A stretch of DNA of 64,000 nucleotides, taken from Planctomycetota bacterium. GTDB lineage: Bacteria > Planctomycetota > Phycisphaerae > Sedimentisphaerales > Anaerobacaceae. Both the position numbers and the translations under genes were made by a program. Where the stretch lies: contig JACNGQ010000188.1 of assembly GCA_014384025.1 (NCBI GenBank), positions 1 to 64,000 of the forward strand, written 5' to 3'. The notes beneath the pieces are model-generated. The model did not search any database. It worked only from the letters and a program-made list of their open reading frames with translations, and was not told where the DNA came from. How positions within the stretch are numbered: the first letter of the stretch is position 1; every line of letters begins with the position of its first letter. This document shows positions 7,922 to 58,695 of the stretch, one piece after another.

Positions 7922-9313
7922 TTAATTTCCTAATCCACGAAGTTGCTTGTTTACATTCGTTGCGTAGTTATCGGTCATACCCATTATATAATCAAGGAAT
8001 AACATGATAATCTCATATAGATCTTTCCCTTTAAATCTCTCGCCAGAATCTTGCTTAATGAAGTTTTTGATTATTTTTGTTTTGTATGAAGTTTTTTTAC
8101 CATTAACAATTTCACGAGCTGCTTCTATTGAGTTTTCAAGTAAAATGCTTATTACACTATAGGCACCGAGTTCTAAAAGAACATTTCTTTGGTTCTGATA
8201 TATTTTCTTTTTCAAATTTCCTTTTTCATATAAAGCGTCAATCTTAGAACAAAGACTATCATTATTTGTCTTTGACATAAGACTGCTATCTAAGCTGCCT
8301 TCCATAATTCTTTCGTAATTATTTTCAAAAGCTTCAACAATCTCTTTTATCATGAGATTTATCATCTTTCCGCGTAGCATTCCATTTTTAATACGCCAAG
8401 ATATTTTAGAATTAAGTAGTCTTTTTTGTTCTTCCCTTAATTCGTCCTTTTTTTTCAGGAATTTATCAAATTCCTGCTCTATTAAATAATTTTCACGTAA
8501 TAAATTTAATTCTATTGCATCTTCAATATCTAAAACTCTATAGCATATGTCGTCCGCCGCTTCGACAAGAAATGCTAAGGGGTGTCTTGTATATTCTGCT
8601 TCAAATTTAGAGCTATTATGTTTTTTCTCTATCAAACGCAGTTCTTTAGCAATTTCATCGAAATAATTATACTCTGTTTTAAAACAACTGAATTTATGGT
8701 CTTTTTTCTTAGGGTCTTCTTTAGCGAAATTTGAAGTCCAGGGATATTTAAGCAATGCACCAAGAGTCGAATATGTCAGGCGCATACCACCATCGTTTTC
8801 ATAATATTCTTTATATGTAACAACTCGAAAAGCCATAGCGTTTCCATCAAAGTTTTTTAGGTCTTGTTGCTCTCTAACATTAAGCTCTTTTTCATCCTCT
8901 TTTATTTTTTCTTGAAACCATTTCCGAGTAGCCTCCTCTGCGGCATGTCCAAAAGGAGGATTACCAATATCATGAGCAAGACAAGCTGCTTCAACAATTT
9001 CTCCAACATTCGATGGTTCTAATTTGTTTGGAAGTTCTTCGTTATCTTTCAGCCATTGTCCAACCATTACTCCCAAACTTCGTCCAACACTTGCAACTTC
9101 TAAGCTGTGTGATAATCGTGTGTGAATATGGTCATTCTCGCTCAAGAGATGAACCTGTGTTTTGCGTCCCAATCTTCTGAAAGCGCTTGAAAAAGTTATT
9201 TTGTCTATATCTTTCTCGAATTGGCTTCTCCCATTTTTTTCTTCCCCATTGTTATTTGGGTCATGAAACCTCTTTTCAACTAACAATCTGTTCCATTTCA
9301 TTTTTTCGCTCAT
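7922..9313 (-). CDS. dgt: dGTP triphosphohydrolase-like HD protein
   Basis: RLGRKTQVH, HTRLSHSLEVASVGRSLG, ACLAHDIGNPPFGHAAE HD motif; AT-rich relative to neighbours. Confidence 0.9.
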   Translation of the reverse strand: MSEKMKWNRLLVEKRFHDPNNNGEEKNGRSQFEKDIDKITFSSAFRRLGRKTQVHLLSENDHIHTRLSHSLEVASVGRSLGVMVGQWLKDNEELPNKLEPSNVGEIVEAACLAHDIGNPPFGHAAEEATRKWFQEKIKEDEKELNVREQQDLKNFDGNAMAFRVVTYKEYYENDGGMRLTYSTLGALLKYPWTSNFAKEDPKKKDHKFSCFKTEYNYFDEIAKELRLIEKKHNSSKFEAEYTRHPLAFLVEAADDICYRVLDIEDAIELNLLRENYLIEQEFDKFLKKKDELREEQKRLLNSKISWRIKNGMLRGKMINLMIKEIVEAFENNYERIMEGSLDSSLMSKTNNDSLCSKIDALYEKGNLKKKIYQNQRNVLLELGAYSVISILLENSIEAAREIVNGKKTSYKTKIIKNFIKQDSGERFKGKDLYEIIMLFLDYIMGMTDNYATNVNKQLRGLGN

Positions 9314-29130: not shown

Positions 29131-29538
29131 GACTGTCCCGAATGGCGGTGCCTTAAGCAATATGTTGGTCTTTTTCGTAATTATTCAAGATTCCGAGCAC
29201 AGATTGACGAAATGCCTATAAACACAGTCCTTTCTTTGTTTTGCGATAAGGGTTTGTGCTTTCTGTTTCATACGCTCTCCCTTATCGATGCGGGGGTGTT
29301 GTTGCCGCAAATCCCTTAAGGCACCGCCATTCGTGACTGTCCCGAATGGCGGTGCCTTAAGCAATATGTTGGTCTTTTTCGTAATTATTCAAGATTCCGA
29401 GCACAGATTGACGAAATGCCTATAAACACAGTCCTTTCTTTGTTTTGCGATAAGGGTTTGTGCTTTCTGTTTCATACGCTCTCCCTTATCGATGCGGGGG
29501 TGTTGTTGCCGCAAATCCCTTAAGGCACCGCCATTCGT
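29131..29538. mobile_element. Two tandem 204-bp units, each bounded by 17-bp inverted repeats (MITE/REP-like)
   Basis: GACTGTCCCGAATGGCGGTGCCTTAAG...CTTAAGGCACCGCCATTCGT repeated at 29131 and 29335; boundary GACTGTCCC recurs at 29539. Confidence 0.85.
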
Positions 29539-30126
29539 GACTGTCCCTCCGGGTTCCCGGTCCATTTTATTGAGGGGGGATTCGAGATCTTTCGTACTGA
29601 AGACGCTCTCCGACTCCTCGTAGTGAAATGCCCAGACCACACCGGGTTGGTTGTCAATAGCAGTATCTTTTACAGCAAACCAGAGCGCCACCAAAGGATT
29701 CTTGGACCAATCAAGTAAGCGGGTTGGCAACCTGTTATGTTGGGCAAGCGCTAACCATTGCCAATCATTGTCTGGAACAATATCAATATACGGAATCGAC
29801 TCTCGCTCGAACTCCTCAAGAATTTCTTTCTCTCTCAGTAGAACTTGAGATCTTTCCATGTCGCGTCCAACAGAAGGCACCAAAGGCCAGTCCTTTTCTG
29901 TCGTCTGACCTCTAAATATCACGCGCTCATCAGGGTATAGCCAAATTGCGACCTCGACGAATTCGCTGACCGAGGATACGGCAAAGACCTTCGGTTTACC
30001 AGCTACCTGTGGTTTCAAGTATTTCTGCACTCGCTTATCCATTAGTTGGGATCTCCTAATATCCTCACTCAGACTACAAGGGTTTCTTATTGTGATTTCG
30101 GCGGATTTTATAGGCGCTGAAGTCAA
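29389..30126 (-). CDS. FRG domain protein with C-terminus replaced by repeat-derived sequence
   Basis: VIFRGQTTEKDWPLVPSVGR, WLALAQHNRLPTRLLDWSKNPLVALWFAV; C-terminal ~50 aa encoded by the 204-bp unit. Confidence 0.8.
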   Translation of the reverse strand: MTSAPIKSAEITIRNPCSLSEDIRRSQLMDKRVQKYLKPQVAGKPKVFAVSSVSEFVEVAIWLYPDERVIFRGQTTEKDWPLVPSVGRDMERSQVLLREKEILEEFERESIPYIDIVPDNDWQWLALAQHNRLPTRLLDWSKNPLVALWFAVKDTAIDNQPGVVWAFHYEESESVFSTKDLESPLNKMDREPGGTVTNGGALRDLRQQHPRIDKGERMKQKAQTLIAKQRKDCVYRHFVNLCSES

Positions 30127-53737: not shown

Positions 53738-54055
53738 CCTGGACCGGCCCGACGGGTATTGTTCTGGAATGAGGATTGGGCCAGAATCGCAGGATTATAT
53801 CCTGCAGTCCTGCATTGCCCTGTTGAAGATGAATTAATTTCATTTTGATTTTTGGTGAATACTTATCCCTTGGGTAATCCCCTCAGAGCAGGCCGATCAG
53901 CGCATTTGTCTGGAAAGCCCGCCCTGAAAAAAACTTTGACGTTACGAACTTATTGGTGATAGAATCGTATAAATTCTACTTAAATTATTTACTGTATTTG
54001 TCGAATTAAGAGCATTTAGTGCTGTTTTGAATAACTTATGAATTGGAGATCAAAA

Positions 54056-55567
54056 ATGAACATTAGCAGCTTAGAACAAAACAAAGCTCACTCGCGTTAT
54101 ATTGTGATTTCAATCCTTTTGATAATGCTGTTTATCAGTCCATTATCGGTCTTTGCCCAGGACCCTGATCCGGAAAGCATCGCCACGTTGCGACAGATGG
54201 GTAACGCCTTTTCTTCTATTGCAGAAAAGACTTCGCCGGCGGTAGTTTCACTAAGGGCTGAAAGAATCGTTACCCAGGAGAGCCAGTCTATGAGGGAATC
54301 GCCTTTCGGTGAGCCGTTTTCAGACCCGTTCGAATTTTTCTTCCGCCGCTCTCCCCGCCAGCGTGATCCGCGTGAACAGCCTGAACAGCGCGCACCGCGT
54401 GCACCAAGAAGGGAGTCGCGAACTGCCCAGGGCTCCGGTTTTCTCATCTCATCCGATGGTTATATCCTCACAAACAATCACATGGTCGAAGAATCCGAAA
54501 AAATTGAGGTGGAACTCACAGACGGCAGAAAGTTTACCGCTAAAATCATCGGTACAGACCCGGATTCGGACGTCGCTGTCGTAAAAGTAGATGCCGAAAA
54601 CCTTCCATATCTCAAACTGGCTGATTCAGACGCCCTCGAAGTTGGGGAATGGGTCCTGGCCATTGGCAATCCGCTTGGTCTGAGCCATACTGTTACAGCC
54701 GGTATCGTAAGCGCAAAAGGCAGAAGTGGTTTCGGTCTGGCTAATTTTGAAAATTTCATTCAGACCGATGCCGCGATAAACTTCGGTAATTCGGGCGGAC
54801 CTCTGATTAATCTTGATGCAGAAGTGGTCGGAATTAATACCGCTATTGTAGGAGCCGGCGGCAATATAGGTATCGGCTTTGCGATACCGATAAATATGGC
54901 AAAGAACATTTATGACCAGCTTGTTAACAATGGAACTGTTTCAAGAGGTTACATAGGAATCAAATTCGAGGAATTAACGCCCGAATTAGCTTCTGGTTTT
55001 GGTTTGAAAGAAGATACTAAGGGGATATCTGTAGTCGAAGTTATGGAGGATTCCCCGGCGGAAAAAGCTGGATTAAAACGCTATGATGTTATTGTCGAGT
55101 TTGAAGGCAAGCCTGTTGGAAAAAGCAATGAATTCCGTAACCAGGTGGCAATGCTGAATCCTGGTACTAAAGTGGAAATTGTTATCCTGCGGAACAAAAA
55201 ACGAAAAAATATTACTCTTAACCTCACCACGCGTCCTTCGACGGCGGAGCTTACAGGTGCACTGCCGCAGGAGACACAAAAAGAGTTGGGATTTTCCGTA
55301 GAAGACCTGACTGACGAATTAGCCGGGCACTATGGTTATAAAGACCTGAGCGGGGTCATCGTTACGAGTGTTGTTGATGACTCACAGGCTGCTGAGAAAG
55401 GAATAGCGCCGGGGGCGCTGATTATGGAAGTCAATCAGCAAAAAGTGAGAAATACAACGGAATTTAACGAGGCGATAAAAGATGCAAAGAAAGAAGGTGC
55501 CGCTCTGCTGTTTGTAAAGCGGGGGCGATATACTTTTTTTGTCCCTCTAAAACTTCCCAAGGAATAG
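54056..55567 (+). CDS. DegP/HtrA family serine protease with two PDZ domains
   Basis: GSGFLISSDGYILTNNHMVEES, SDVAVVKV, NFGNSGGPLIN, two PDZ regions. Confidence 0.95.
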   Translation: MNISSLEQNKAHSRYIVISILLIMLFISPLSVFAQDPDPESIATLRQMGNAFSSIAEKTSPAVVSLRAERIVTQESQSMRESPFGEPFSDPFEFFFRRSPRQRDPREQPEQRAPRAPRRESRTAQGSGFLISSDGYILTNNHMVEESEKIEVELTDGRKFTAKIIGTDPDSDVAVVKVDAENLPYLKLADSDALEVGEWVLAIGNPLGLSHTVTAGIVSAKGRSGFGLANFENFIQTDAAINFGNSGGPLINLDAEVVGINTAIVGAGGNIGIGFAIPINMAKNIYDQLVNNGTVSRGYIGIKFEELTPELASGFGLKEDTKGISVVEVMEDSPAEKAGLKRYDVIVEFEGKPVGKSNEFRNQVAMLNPGTKVEIVILRNKKRKNITLNLTTRPSTAELTGALPQETQKELGFSVEDLTDELAGHYGYKDLSGVIVTSVVDDSQAAEKGIAPGALIMEVNQQKVRNTTEFNEAIKDAKKEGAALLFVKRGRYTFFVPLKLPKE

Positions 55568-55602
55568 AAATGCTGCAAGAGTCCTTTTGTCTTAACCTTC
55601 TT

Positions 55603-55628
55603 AGCCCCGCATAAACCGGGGCTTTTTT
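55603..55628 (+). terminator. Intrinsic terminator AGCCCCG-CATAAAC-CGGGGCTTTTTT
   Basis: 7-bp GC stem plus T-run downstream of htrA. Confidence 0.9.
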
Positions 55629-55773
55629 CATTGTTGATAAACACTGATAATTTAAGCAGGGGATACTGGCATTATAATAAGTAAATCTGAAAAGAGAAAA
55701 AACACTTCCTCCGCATAGGCTCTATCGAGCCTAAAGAAAACAAAAAGAGACCTTTAGCATCTAAGGGTAGTAA

Positions 55774-55890
55774 CTACTCTTCGGGCTCACAGGTGCAATC
55801 AGACGGCGACTCACCGCAGCCGGCACAAACCCCGTCTTCGATAAGGCCGCCGCATGTTTCACACGGCGTACATCCACATGAATCACACAT
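55774..55890 (-). CDS. 38-aa cysteine-rich (9 Cys) zinc-ribbon-like microprotein
   Basis: Reads MCDSCGCTPCETCGGLIEDGVCAGCGESPSDCTCEPEE*; not in ORF track because it is below the size cutoff. Confidence 0.65.
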   Translation of the reverse strand: MCDSCGCTPCETCGGLIEDGVCAGCGESPSDCTCEPEE

Positions 55891-56257
55891 TTTTCTCACG
55901 CCTTAAATAAGATATTACTTATTTCTAATTAATCGACGATTCAAAATAATATGGAACTTGGTTCCAACGAATGAATAATAGTAAATACCCGCAGAAAAAA
56001 ATCAATCATATTATAAGATTTATTTTGAGGCCGTTTGTCCGGAGGAATAAGATATTTATTTTGATTATGCCATTAGCTGATCTGAGATATTGATGATTGA
56101 TTATTTGACAATCAAGTCATTTCCGGCGAAACTACATAGCAAATTATAAAGATATAACACAGAAAAGGCTTTTCTGGCGGAATATGTAAGAGAATTAAAA
56201 GATGCTTTTTTCATAGCCCCTGAGAGTCTTTTAATATTTTGATGACTGGAGAGATGA

Positions 56258-57223
56258 ATGTCAGATGGATTGAGTTTTCATAATATTCCGATAGTTATCG
56301 ATAAGTGGCGGAAAGATGAAACCTATGATATTTATACGGTAGGTTCCCGTGATAAAGACGCGTACTTTTCGCCCAAGGAACCTAAAGATCAAAGTATTAA
56401 GCCAGATTGGCGATATTTGTTTAAGTTATCTCGAAGCTGGTGTCCATGGCAATTTTGGTGTGAGATAATAGCTTATAGGTTTGGCTGTATTATTGGCGTG
56501 GAGGTTCCTCCGGCACATATAGGTTTAAGTAAAATCTACGAAAAAAATGTTGATACTTATGCGGCATTAATAGAATGGTTCTATGACGAAAGCAAAGATA
56601 TTTATATTACTGGTGAGCAAATTATGGTTGGTCTTATCAAAGATTTCGATACGGAGAAGGGTAGAAAGCATAATCTTAAGACAATCAGAGATTTTTTCAA
56701 AGATCGCAAAGAAACATTAAATGATTGGGCCAGTGTATTAACTTTTGATATACTTATTGGAAATACAGACCGCCATCAGGAAAATTGGGGACTGGTCCTG
56801 AAAAACGCCAAATTGAATCCTAAAGGGGGTGGTAAGGTTTATCCTTCTCCGGCGTTTGATAATGGAACGGCTCTGGGGCATGAAATACTCGAAAAAAATA
56901 TTGATAAATATGTTGATACCAACAGATTAGAACGTTATCTGGTCGACAAACGTGCCCGACATCATATGAAATGGTCTTTAGATGAAGAAGGACAGCTTAA
57001 TTTTTATGAATTTATGAAAAAATATACTGTGGAATTTCCCGAAACCAAGCGTATAATAACTCGTCATTTAAGTTTTGATTATCAACAAGTCGAAGAAGTG
57101 TTAGCACCTTTAGTCGGAGCAGTTTCTGATCCAAAATATAAATTAACACGAAAGAGACTGGATTTCGTTTTGAAACTGATCTTTGGGCGCAAAAGAATCT
57201 TGGAAGAAACATTAGAATTATGA
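56258..57223 (+). CDS. HipA-like/CtkA-like Ser/Thr kinase
   Basis: FDILIGNTDRHQENWGLVL catalytic loop; SPAFDNGTALGHE metal-binding motif. Confidence 0.8.
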   Translation: MSDGLSFHNIPIVIDKWRKDETYDIYTVGSRDKDAYFSPKEPKDQSIKPDWRYLFKLSRSWCPWQFWCEIIAYRFGCIIGVEVPPAHIGLSKIYEKNVDTYAALIEWFYDESKDIYITGEQIMVGLIKDFDTEKGRKHNLKTIRDFFKDRKETLNDWASVLTFDILIGNTDRHQENWGLVLKNAKLNPKGGGKVYPSPAFDNGTALGHEILEKNIDKYVDTNRLERYLVDKRARHHMKWSLDEEGQLNFYEFMKKYTVEFPETKRIITRHLSFDYQQVEEVLAPLVGAVSDPKYKLTRKRLDFVLKLIFGRKRILEETLEL

Positions 57224-57936
57224 GGCATATTGAACATATAGTTGAACCAGACAGGCTTCTGCTTTCCTGGCAGGCTAAAAGCGAGCGTCTGAGAATGATC
57301 GTTGCTGAACTGATACGTAACGGCGATGATGTTAATTTGGTATATCTCAGGGAAAGTGAGGATTTTTCAAAGGCTCAAATCCTGGGTTTTGAAAAGTATC
57401 CGGGCTTTGATACTGAAAAAGAAGTTCACGAGAATGTTTTGGGCTCTTTTATGAAGCGTCTTCCACCTCGCAGCCGCAGAGATTTTGGTCGTTTTCTCGA
57501 TGCCTTAAGGATTAAACCTGAAGCTAAAGATGAGATTTCCGATTTTGCATTGCTTGGTTACTCAGGAGCGAAACTGCCGGATGATGATTTTACAGTTATA
57601 CATCCATTTGAAAATGCTTTATTTCCGTTTGAATTTATGTTATCTGTTGAGGGATATCAGCATTATCAGAATGAATTATCCCTTAATGTGTTATCGACAG
57701 ATATGCAGGCGGATTTTGAAGCTGAACCGGATAATCCAAAAGACCCCGAAGCAATAAAGGTTATAATAGACGGTATTAGGGTAGGTTATGTATGTCGTGG
57801 CCTAACCACTTCTTTCCATAAATGGATGAAGTCGGGTTTGACAATAGCAGCTTATGTTGAACGCATAAACGGAACAGGACAAGATCCTAAAATATATCTG
57901 TATGTTTCGGTAAAAAAGGCTTTGTGTGTTGTTTAG
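57220..57936 (+). CDS. HIRAN domain protein
   Basis: DFEAEPDNPKDPEAIKVIIDGIRVGYVCRGLT; ATGA overlap with upstream kinase. Confidence 0.75.
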   Translation: MRHIEHIVEPDRLLLSWQAKSERLRMIVAELIRNGDDVNLVYLRESEDFSKAQILGFEKYPGFDTEKEVHENVLGSFMKRLPPRSRRDFGRFLDALRIKPEAKDEISDFALLGYSGAKLPDDDFTVIHPFENALFPFEFMLSVEGYQHYQNELSLNVLSTDMQADFEAEPDNPKDPEAIKVIIDGIRVGYVCRGLTTSFHKWMKSGLTIAAYVERINGTGQDPKIYLYVSVKKALCVV

Positions 57937-58059
57937 CCAAAACTGAGTTTTTTCTAATTCCTACTATAGAATCTCATAGGAAAGTTTTTGCAGTCAATTT
58001 ACATCCGTATTTTGCCAGACTCTTACCGATATACTGATGAGTAGCTTATCGTTTTTTAA

Positions 58060-58695
58060 ATGCGCTACCGGAGATATGGTTGTATGTGCGACGGAAAGAT
58101 AGTTTTAGCTTTGCCCGATTGGGTCGGGCCTTTTCTTGAAAAACAGGATTCGGTCTTTAAAGATATTGAAGGTAGAATGCGCCTTGTGATTGAGCTGTCA
58201 CGCCTGAACGTCGAATACGAAACAGGCGGGCCGTTCGGGGCCGGTATCTTTGAGCGGGTGGGTGGGAAACTTCTTGCAGTTGGCGTTAATGTTGTAATTG
58301 ATATGAGCTGTTCGCTGGCCCACGCGGAAATGATGTGCATTGGCCTTGCCCAGCAAAAGCTCAAAACATTCGACCTTGGCGCTGAAGGCCTGCCTGCCTG
58401 CGAGCTTGTAAGCAGTACCGAACCATGCGCGATGTGTCTCGGAGCGATACCATGGTCGGGAGTCCGAAGATTAATATGCGGCGCTCGCGGCCGGGACGCA
58501 TGCGAAATAGGATTCGATGAGGGAGTCAAAGTGCCGGATTGGGCCGATACACTTAAGAACCGCGGCATAACTGTTTTGCCGGACGTCCTTCGAAAAGAAG
58601 CCCGCGAGGTACTGATAAAATATAAAGAGTCGGGCGGGCTGATCTACAACGGCAGACAGGCGACCTTTCCAATAAAAGAATCCAATCAGAGCTAA
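58060..58695 (+). CDS. Cytidine/guanine deaminase-like nucleoside deaminase
   Basis: HAEMMCIGLAQ and SSTEPCAMCLGAIPWSGVRRLICG zinc motifs. Confidence 0.88.
   Translation: MRYRRYGCMCDGKIVLALPDWVGPFLEKQDSVFKDIEGRMRLVIELSRLNVEYETGGPFGAGIFERVGGKLLAVGVNVVIDMSCSLAHAEMMCIGLAQQKLKTFDLGAEGLPACELVSSTEPCAMCLGAIPWSGVRRLICGARGRDACEIGFDEGVKVPDWADTLKNRGITVLPDVLRKEAREVLIKYKESGGLIYNGRQATFPIKESNQS

Follow-up and report, generated by a model that had tools for sequence, protein, structure and literature searches.

The window, the whole 64,000-nucleotide stretch of DNA analysed here, carries on its forward strand a gene for a HipA-superfamily kinase followed by a gene for a partner protein that ends in a HIRAN domain. 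The features of the locus are:

54038-55567: htrA, upstream of the pair.
55966..57997, no strand assigned: inserted segment, approximate, about 2.03 kb, delimited by comparison with sister species.
56258..57223, plus strand: HipA-superfamily Ser/Thr kinase gene (HipI / PDC-M03A), 321 aa.
57220..57936, plus strand: partner gene (HipN / PDC-M03B), 238 aa.
57220..57624, plus strand: predicted HipS-like domain at the partner N-terminus, residues about 1-135, from PF13657 and hhalign.
57646..57876, plus strand: HIRAN domain at the partner C-terminus, residues about 143-219, from Pfam, profile and Foldseek searches.
58060-58695: cytidine-deaminase-family gene, downstream of the pair.

The kinase gene comes first, is preceded by GGAGAG, and overlaps the partner gene by ATGA. 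Both open reading frames, their overlap and the motifs quoted for the kinase are present as the original prediction had claimed. The span it had given, 56150-57936, has the right end, whereas 56150 precedes the start codon of the kinase gene by about 100 bp. Its description of an AT-rich island between htrA and the deaminase gene also fits the measured GC content, which is 0.35-0.41 over the pair and about 0.45-0.55 in the surrounding DNA.

The partner position had been assigned to the HIRAN protein, with no HTH gene alongside, and this was borne out when the open reading frames of at least 25 aa in 55570-56257 were inspected by eye: no HTH gene adjoining the pair was seen. All open reading frames in this gap upstream of the kinase gene are of 69 aa or less, and a hidden upstream HTH antitoxin was rejected because none of those inspected resembles an HTH protein. 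An RNA element or RNA antitoxin was also rejected, as 55500-58100 gave no Rfam match at E values up to 1, and a scan for promoters and terminators returned no more sites than shuffled sequences did. The single conserved-looking reading frame in the gap is a Cys-rich 41-aa ORF (MRKMCDSCGCTPCETCGG...) on the opposite strand, at window positions 55774-55899 (minus), just beyond the insertion edge. Its cysteine pattern is kept in the sister species G005, as judged by eye, and it is therefore likely to be a real small gene.

The kinase contains the motif GNTDRHQENWG at residues 168-178, with the catalytic stretch G168-N-T-D171-R-H-Q-E-N176, and the motif AFDNG around D201, with the Mg-binding residues F200-D201-N-G. 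Residues G168, N169, D171, N176, D201, N202 and G203 are kept in 80/80 kinase homologues and are all intact in the window. The Pfam HipA_C match, which begins at residue 69, is weak: its E value is 2e-6, and its score of 28.1 bits falls slightly short of the 30.5-bit cut-off. No HipA N-subdomain-1 was detected on the kinase with PF13657 at E values up to 1. In PADLOC-DB the kinase matches PDC-M03A with an E value of 2.4e-38. With a profile of its relatives, the closest solved kinase structure is CtkA from Helicobacter pylori (PDB 3akj/3akk; 1.1e-11), followed by HipT (0.0035). CtkA, which differs in being described as a pro-inflammatory kinase, is also the closest by fold for a fused relative, L079. 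The model of that protein (mean pLDDT 93.8) matches CtkA with a TM score of 0.76 of the target, as well as HipA and HipT, and separately the HIRAN domain of HLTF. A single protein of 547 positions, phrog_26212, likewise matches the kinase with its first part (2.6e-52) and the partner with its second part (5e-39).

The partner matches PDC-M03B in PADLOC-DB (E 1.2e-28), and its AlphaFold2 model has a mean pLDDT of 96.8. The Pfam HIRAN domain is found on residues 143-219 with an E value of 8.9e-6, above the cut-off, and PF08797 is matched by 57/58 partner homologues. The profile of the relatives matches human HLTF HIRAN at 6.6e-7, and the C-terminal half of the window model matches the DNA-bound HLTF HIRAN structure 4s0n in Foldseek with probability 1.00. 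The profile matches to CtkA and to HLTF make the kinase and HIRAN assignments firm, and both assignments of the original prediction were thus upheld by the HMM and structure searches (PADLOC, Pfam, profiles, Foldseek). The DNA-contact residues of HLTF HIRAN, which we take to be R71, N91, Y93, D94 and K113, were compared with the window protein. N172, D175 and the basic R193 are kept there as HLTF-type contact positions. The equivalent of R71, an arginine in 53/58 partner relatives, is Q147 in the window, and the equivalent of Y93 is K174. Because of Q147 and K174, binding of DNA ends by the window HIRAN is uncertain and should not be assumed.

The N-terminal part of the partner had been thought to match no recognisable domain, a view that does not survive at the level of the family. 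PF13657 (Couple_hipA, the HipA N-terminal domain) is matched by 14/58 partner homologues with a best E value of 2.2e-4, and the window sequence alone gave no PF13657 match. An hhalign comparison was made between the aligned partner N-terminal halves and PF13657 sequences collected from other planctomycetes. The N-terminal half matched Couple_hipA with an E value of 5e-5 and a probability of 67%, over window residues 26-119, compared with E values of 0.18 for a reversed alignment and 0.013 for the HIRAN half as controls. These two results suggest that the segment is HipS-like, that is, of the HipA N-subdomain-1 fold, at family level and at the stated profile probability. Foldseek on the window model reported HIRAN matches only and no HipS, and for this reason the HipS assignment rests on sequence profiles. 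The N-terminus of HipN was described as HipS-like by Gerdes et al. (PMC8262856).

Judged from these comparisons, the assignment of the pair as a planctomycete member of hipIN / PDC-M03 is well supported. This organisation is already known, from Gerdes et al. 2021 (PMC8262856) and from PADLOC, and the arrangement is not the unrecognised one for which it had been taken. The name hipIN was given by Gerdes, Baerentsen and Brodersen to the kinase HipI with its putative antitoxin HipN, for which they proposed neutralisation of kinase toxicity, and the HipI family belongs to main clade XI in their 1,239-sequence set (PMC8262856). As in hipIN, a short HipA-like kinase with the HipA core motifs and without N-subdomain-1 is encoded first, followed by a gene with a HipS-like N-terminus (at family level) and a HIRAN C-terminus, so that gene order and domain order are identical. 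The window copy differs in coming from a Planctomycetota MAG and in a HIRAN domain that deviates at two DNA-contact positions. Both components of PDC-M03, a phage defence candidate of PADLOC-DB, were matched in the same arrangement, and no difference was found. The monocistronic HipL, for example that of Escherichia phage 899, shares all three domains and their order, each half being about 36% identical to the window proteins. HipL is one fused 547-aa protein, encoded downstream of a DEDD exonuclease gene in a P2-like phage locus, whereas the window pair consists of two reading frames with no exonuclease gene alongside.

Other HipA-like systems are less similar. HipBST also has a HipS-like inhibitor domain on a protein separate from the kinase, but its HTH protein HipB and its gene order B-S-T are absent from the window, where the HipS-like domain shares its protein with HIRAN, a domain that HipBST does not have. 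HipBA is set apart by its partner, which in the window is a HIRAN protein and not an HTH HipB. HipAD / DS-6 is a two-gene system of a HipA-like kinase and a non-HipB partner that defends against phage and requires its kinase, but its partner carries DUF3037/DUF1829 domains instead of HIRAN (PMC13092281). A search of the literature, with bioRxiv preprints and most subscription journals outside its scope, found no functional test of hipIN, hipL, HipN or PDC-M03, be it of toxicity, neutralisation, DNA binding or phage.

The genomes of 84,980 species were searched with a profile of the kinase only, which gave 182 confirmed relatives, of which the best 80 were kept. The HIRAN partner is present in 80/80 of these loci, which are the closest relatives of the window kinase and not a random sample: in 79 its gene comes immediately after that of the kinase in the same orientation, and in one, L079, it is fused. 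When pairwise divergences were compared between kinase and partner, the correlation was r = 0.86, the highest of 2000 permutations reaching 0.13, across 80 split pairs made up of the window, a few viral contigs and, for the remainder, genome loci. Kinase and HIRAN partner are thus an obligate pair among the closest relatives, the best 80 of 182, and the neighbourhood survey for which the original prediction had called does show the adjacency to recur. Among 294 evenly sampled Planctomycetota genomes, nine kinase matches were found, adjoined by the HIRAN partner in six genomes (G000, G135, G192, G239, G292 and G313); a near-full-length partner was found in 7/294. In G092 (C14:4082-4985) a distant kinase match has a PF13657 domain just downstream instead, an arrangement that resembles hipJS, here in a planctomycete. 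On a Mycolicibacterium vanbaalenii plasmid (L018, 3776-6951) an IS110-family transposase gene lies between distant kinase and HIRAN genes, apparently a broken pair. In a Phycisphaerales relative (L021, 8650-9582) the convergent gene after the pair matches PADLOC PDC-S11 at 1.8e-118.

In the sister species G005, htrA and the deaminase gene stand side by side and the pair is absent. Homology between the window and G005 stops at 55965 and restarts at 58045, with about 75 bp between these points in G005; in comparison with a second species, G003, it restarts at 57998. The pair therefore lies within an insertion of roughly 2.0 kb, of which about 290 bp are AT-rich sequence preceding the kinase gene, and which is most simply read as a gain in the window genome rather than a loss in the sister. 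No integrase gene is present at the insertion edges. A target-site duplication was rejected, as the single direct repeat with the spacing of the boundaries is 12 nt long with one mismatch, which is at chance level. The partner occurs in only 4/41 close-relative genomes, the window's own included, and one of these copies is very distant (22% identity).

No defence island is visible around the window copy, which is flanked by htrA and the deaminase gene. Elsewhere, about 21 of the 80 loci have type I/IIG restriction-modification, DISARM/Dpd-like or related methylase genes within three genes, a count made by clustering the neighbours and naming the clusters from representatives, without a matched background, and hence an association and not a tested enrichment. 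Mads-like genes and integrases are also found as neighbours, the remaining loci have ordinary chromosomal surroundings, and the module is found on phages and plasmids as well.

In Escherichia phage 899 the gene for the fused kinase-HIRAN protein is flanked by those for the replication endonuclease and the portal, and viral contigs carry the module at the same position, either fused or split; these contigs were matched by an alignment query, the single query P0002 giving no match. Directly upstream of the kinase-HIRAN gene, a DEDD 3'-5' exonuclease gene was found at 27 loci on about 23 distinct contigs (for example L015, 4492-5043), in P2-like phages with a fused or split downstream gene. Two genome-derived members of this exonuclease match PF16473. 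Together with the fused gene, the exonuclease is present at an identity of at least 99% in 61/5426 complete E. coli genomes. In Gram-positive bacteria, according to a 2025 paper (PMC11706625), HipA-HIRAN genes have diDNase genes as neighbours, which likewise encode DEDD nucleases, and the exonuclease neighbour in P2-like phages parallels these.

The guess that the pair could be a toxin-antitoxin or phage-sensing unit is compatible with this evidence. We consider it probable, with considerable room for doubt, that the locus holds a hipIN (PDC-M03) module gained by horizontal transfer, which works as a kinase toxin-antitoxin-like anti-phage unit. The observed basis consists of the domains, the intact active site, the partnership and the mobility of the module. 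Inhibition, DNA sensing, target and phage defence are inferred, and for the mechanism we follow the model of Gerdes et al. (PMC8262856). In their proposal, the HIRAN domain of HipL and HipN may detect the ends of phage DNA, or replication intermediates, and so switch on the kinase, with abortive infection as the outcome. HipS binds the HipT active site and blocks ATP binding (PMC10627512, PMC9325769), which suggests, given the HipS-like domain of the partner, that the window kinase is restrained in the same way. This domain would dock near the kinase active site and hold the kinase off, as HipS does with HipT. Binding of HIRAN to DNA ends or single-stranded DNA made during phage infection would relieve the inhibition. 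The freed kinase could then phosphorylate an essential target, which by analogy with HipA/HipT might be an aminoacyl-tRNA synthetase, and growth would halt before the phage spreads.

The toxin-first bicistron with its ATGA overlap, the patchy distribution (4/41 close relatives, 7/294 Planctomycetota genomes), the occurrence on phages and plasmids and the insertion as one unit would equally suit a plain addiction or stabilisation toxin-antitoxin, in which HipN neutralises the kinase and HIRAN binds DNA for repression or localisation only, without phage sensing. On the other hand, we know of no characterised HIRAN domain that is a sequence-specific repressor domain. Moreover, the fused phage reading frames have no separate labile antitoxin, which post-segregational killing needs, and the recurrent placement among restriction-modification genes points to defence. 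We regard this explanation as rather unlikely.

In another reading, the HIRAN domain would detect forks that have stalled or breaks in host DNA, and the kinase would modify repair or cell-cycle proteins. This is suggested by HLTF, whose HIRAN domain has a role at stalled forks and binds the ends of DNA (cited in PMC8262856), and by the DEDD 3'-5' exonuclease genes that adjoin the phage copies. For a core repair pathway, however, one would not expect a distribution that is accessory, patchy and mobile, nor a sister species in which the site is empty, and a host DNA-damage or replication-stress kinase seems unlikely. The window copy could also be degenerate or inactive and retained by chance after transfer, as Q147 and K174 at the HIRAN DNA-contact positions and the missing defence island might indicate. 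Yet both reading frames are full length, the gene overlap is preserved and the kinase catalytic residues conserved in 80/80 homologues are all intact, which makes such a remnant very improbable.

A more speculative extension, which we put forward as doubtful, is that DNA 3' ends directly control the kinases of hipIN and hipL, which would make these modules a DNA-end-sensing toxin-antitoxin class. The DEDD exonuclease next to them in P2-like phages, or the diDNase in Gram-positive bacteria, would act as a third component: by trimming or removing the end signal it would determine the threshold for triggering. On this view, the window copy would be a minimal two-gene form, which may sense another DNA structure because its HIRAN contacts are changed.

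The family has been described twice, as hipIN/hipL in 2021 and as PDC-M03 in PADLOC, and an explicit hypothesis of DNA-end sensing and abortive infection exists. The locus adds a clean hipIN insertion in Planctomycetota, and the survey adds the obligate pairing, a natural fusion in P2-like phages and the recurrent 3'-5' exonuclease gene alongside in such phages. The interest that remains lies in the mechanism and in this exonuclease neighbour. Given the obligate pairing, the fused gene borne by E. coli and the exonuclease next to it, the hypothesis is easily tested in E. coli.

Two further genes of the window were recorded. A dGTPase-like gene at 7925-9313 (minus) has a GC content of 0.34 within a neighbourhood of 0.5; it probably accounts for the PADLOC dGTPase match in the window (8e-67) and could be a further acquired defence gene. 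At 29392-30126 (minus) lies a gene for an FRG-domain protein, probably the window's PDC-S15 match, which is related to one encoded directly downstream of the kinase-HIRAN pair of L019.
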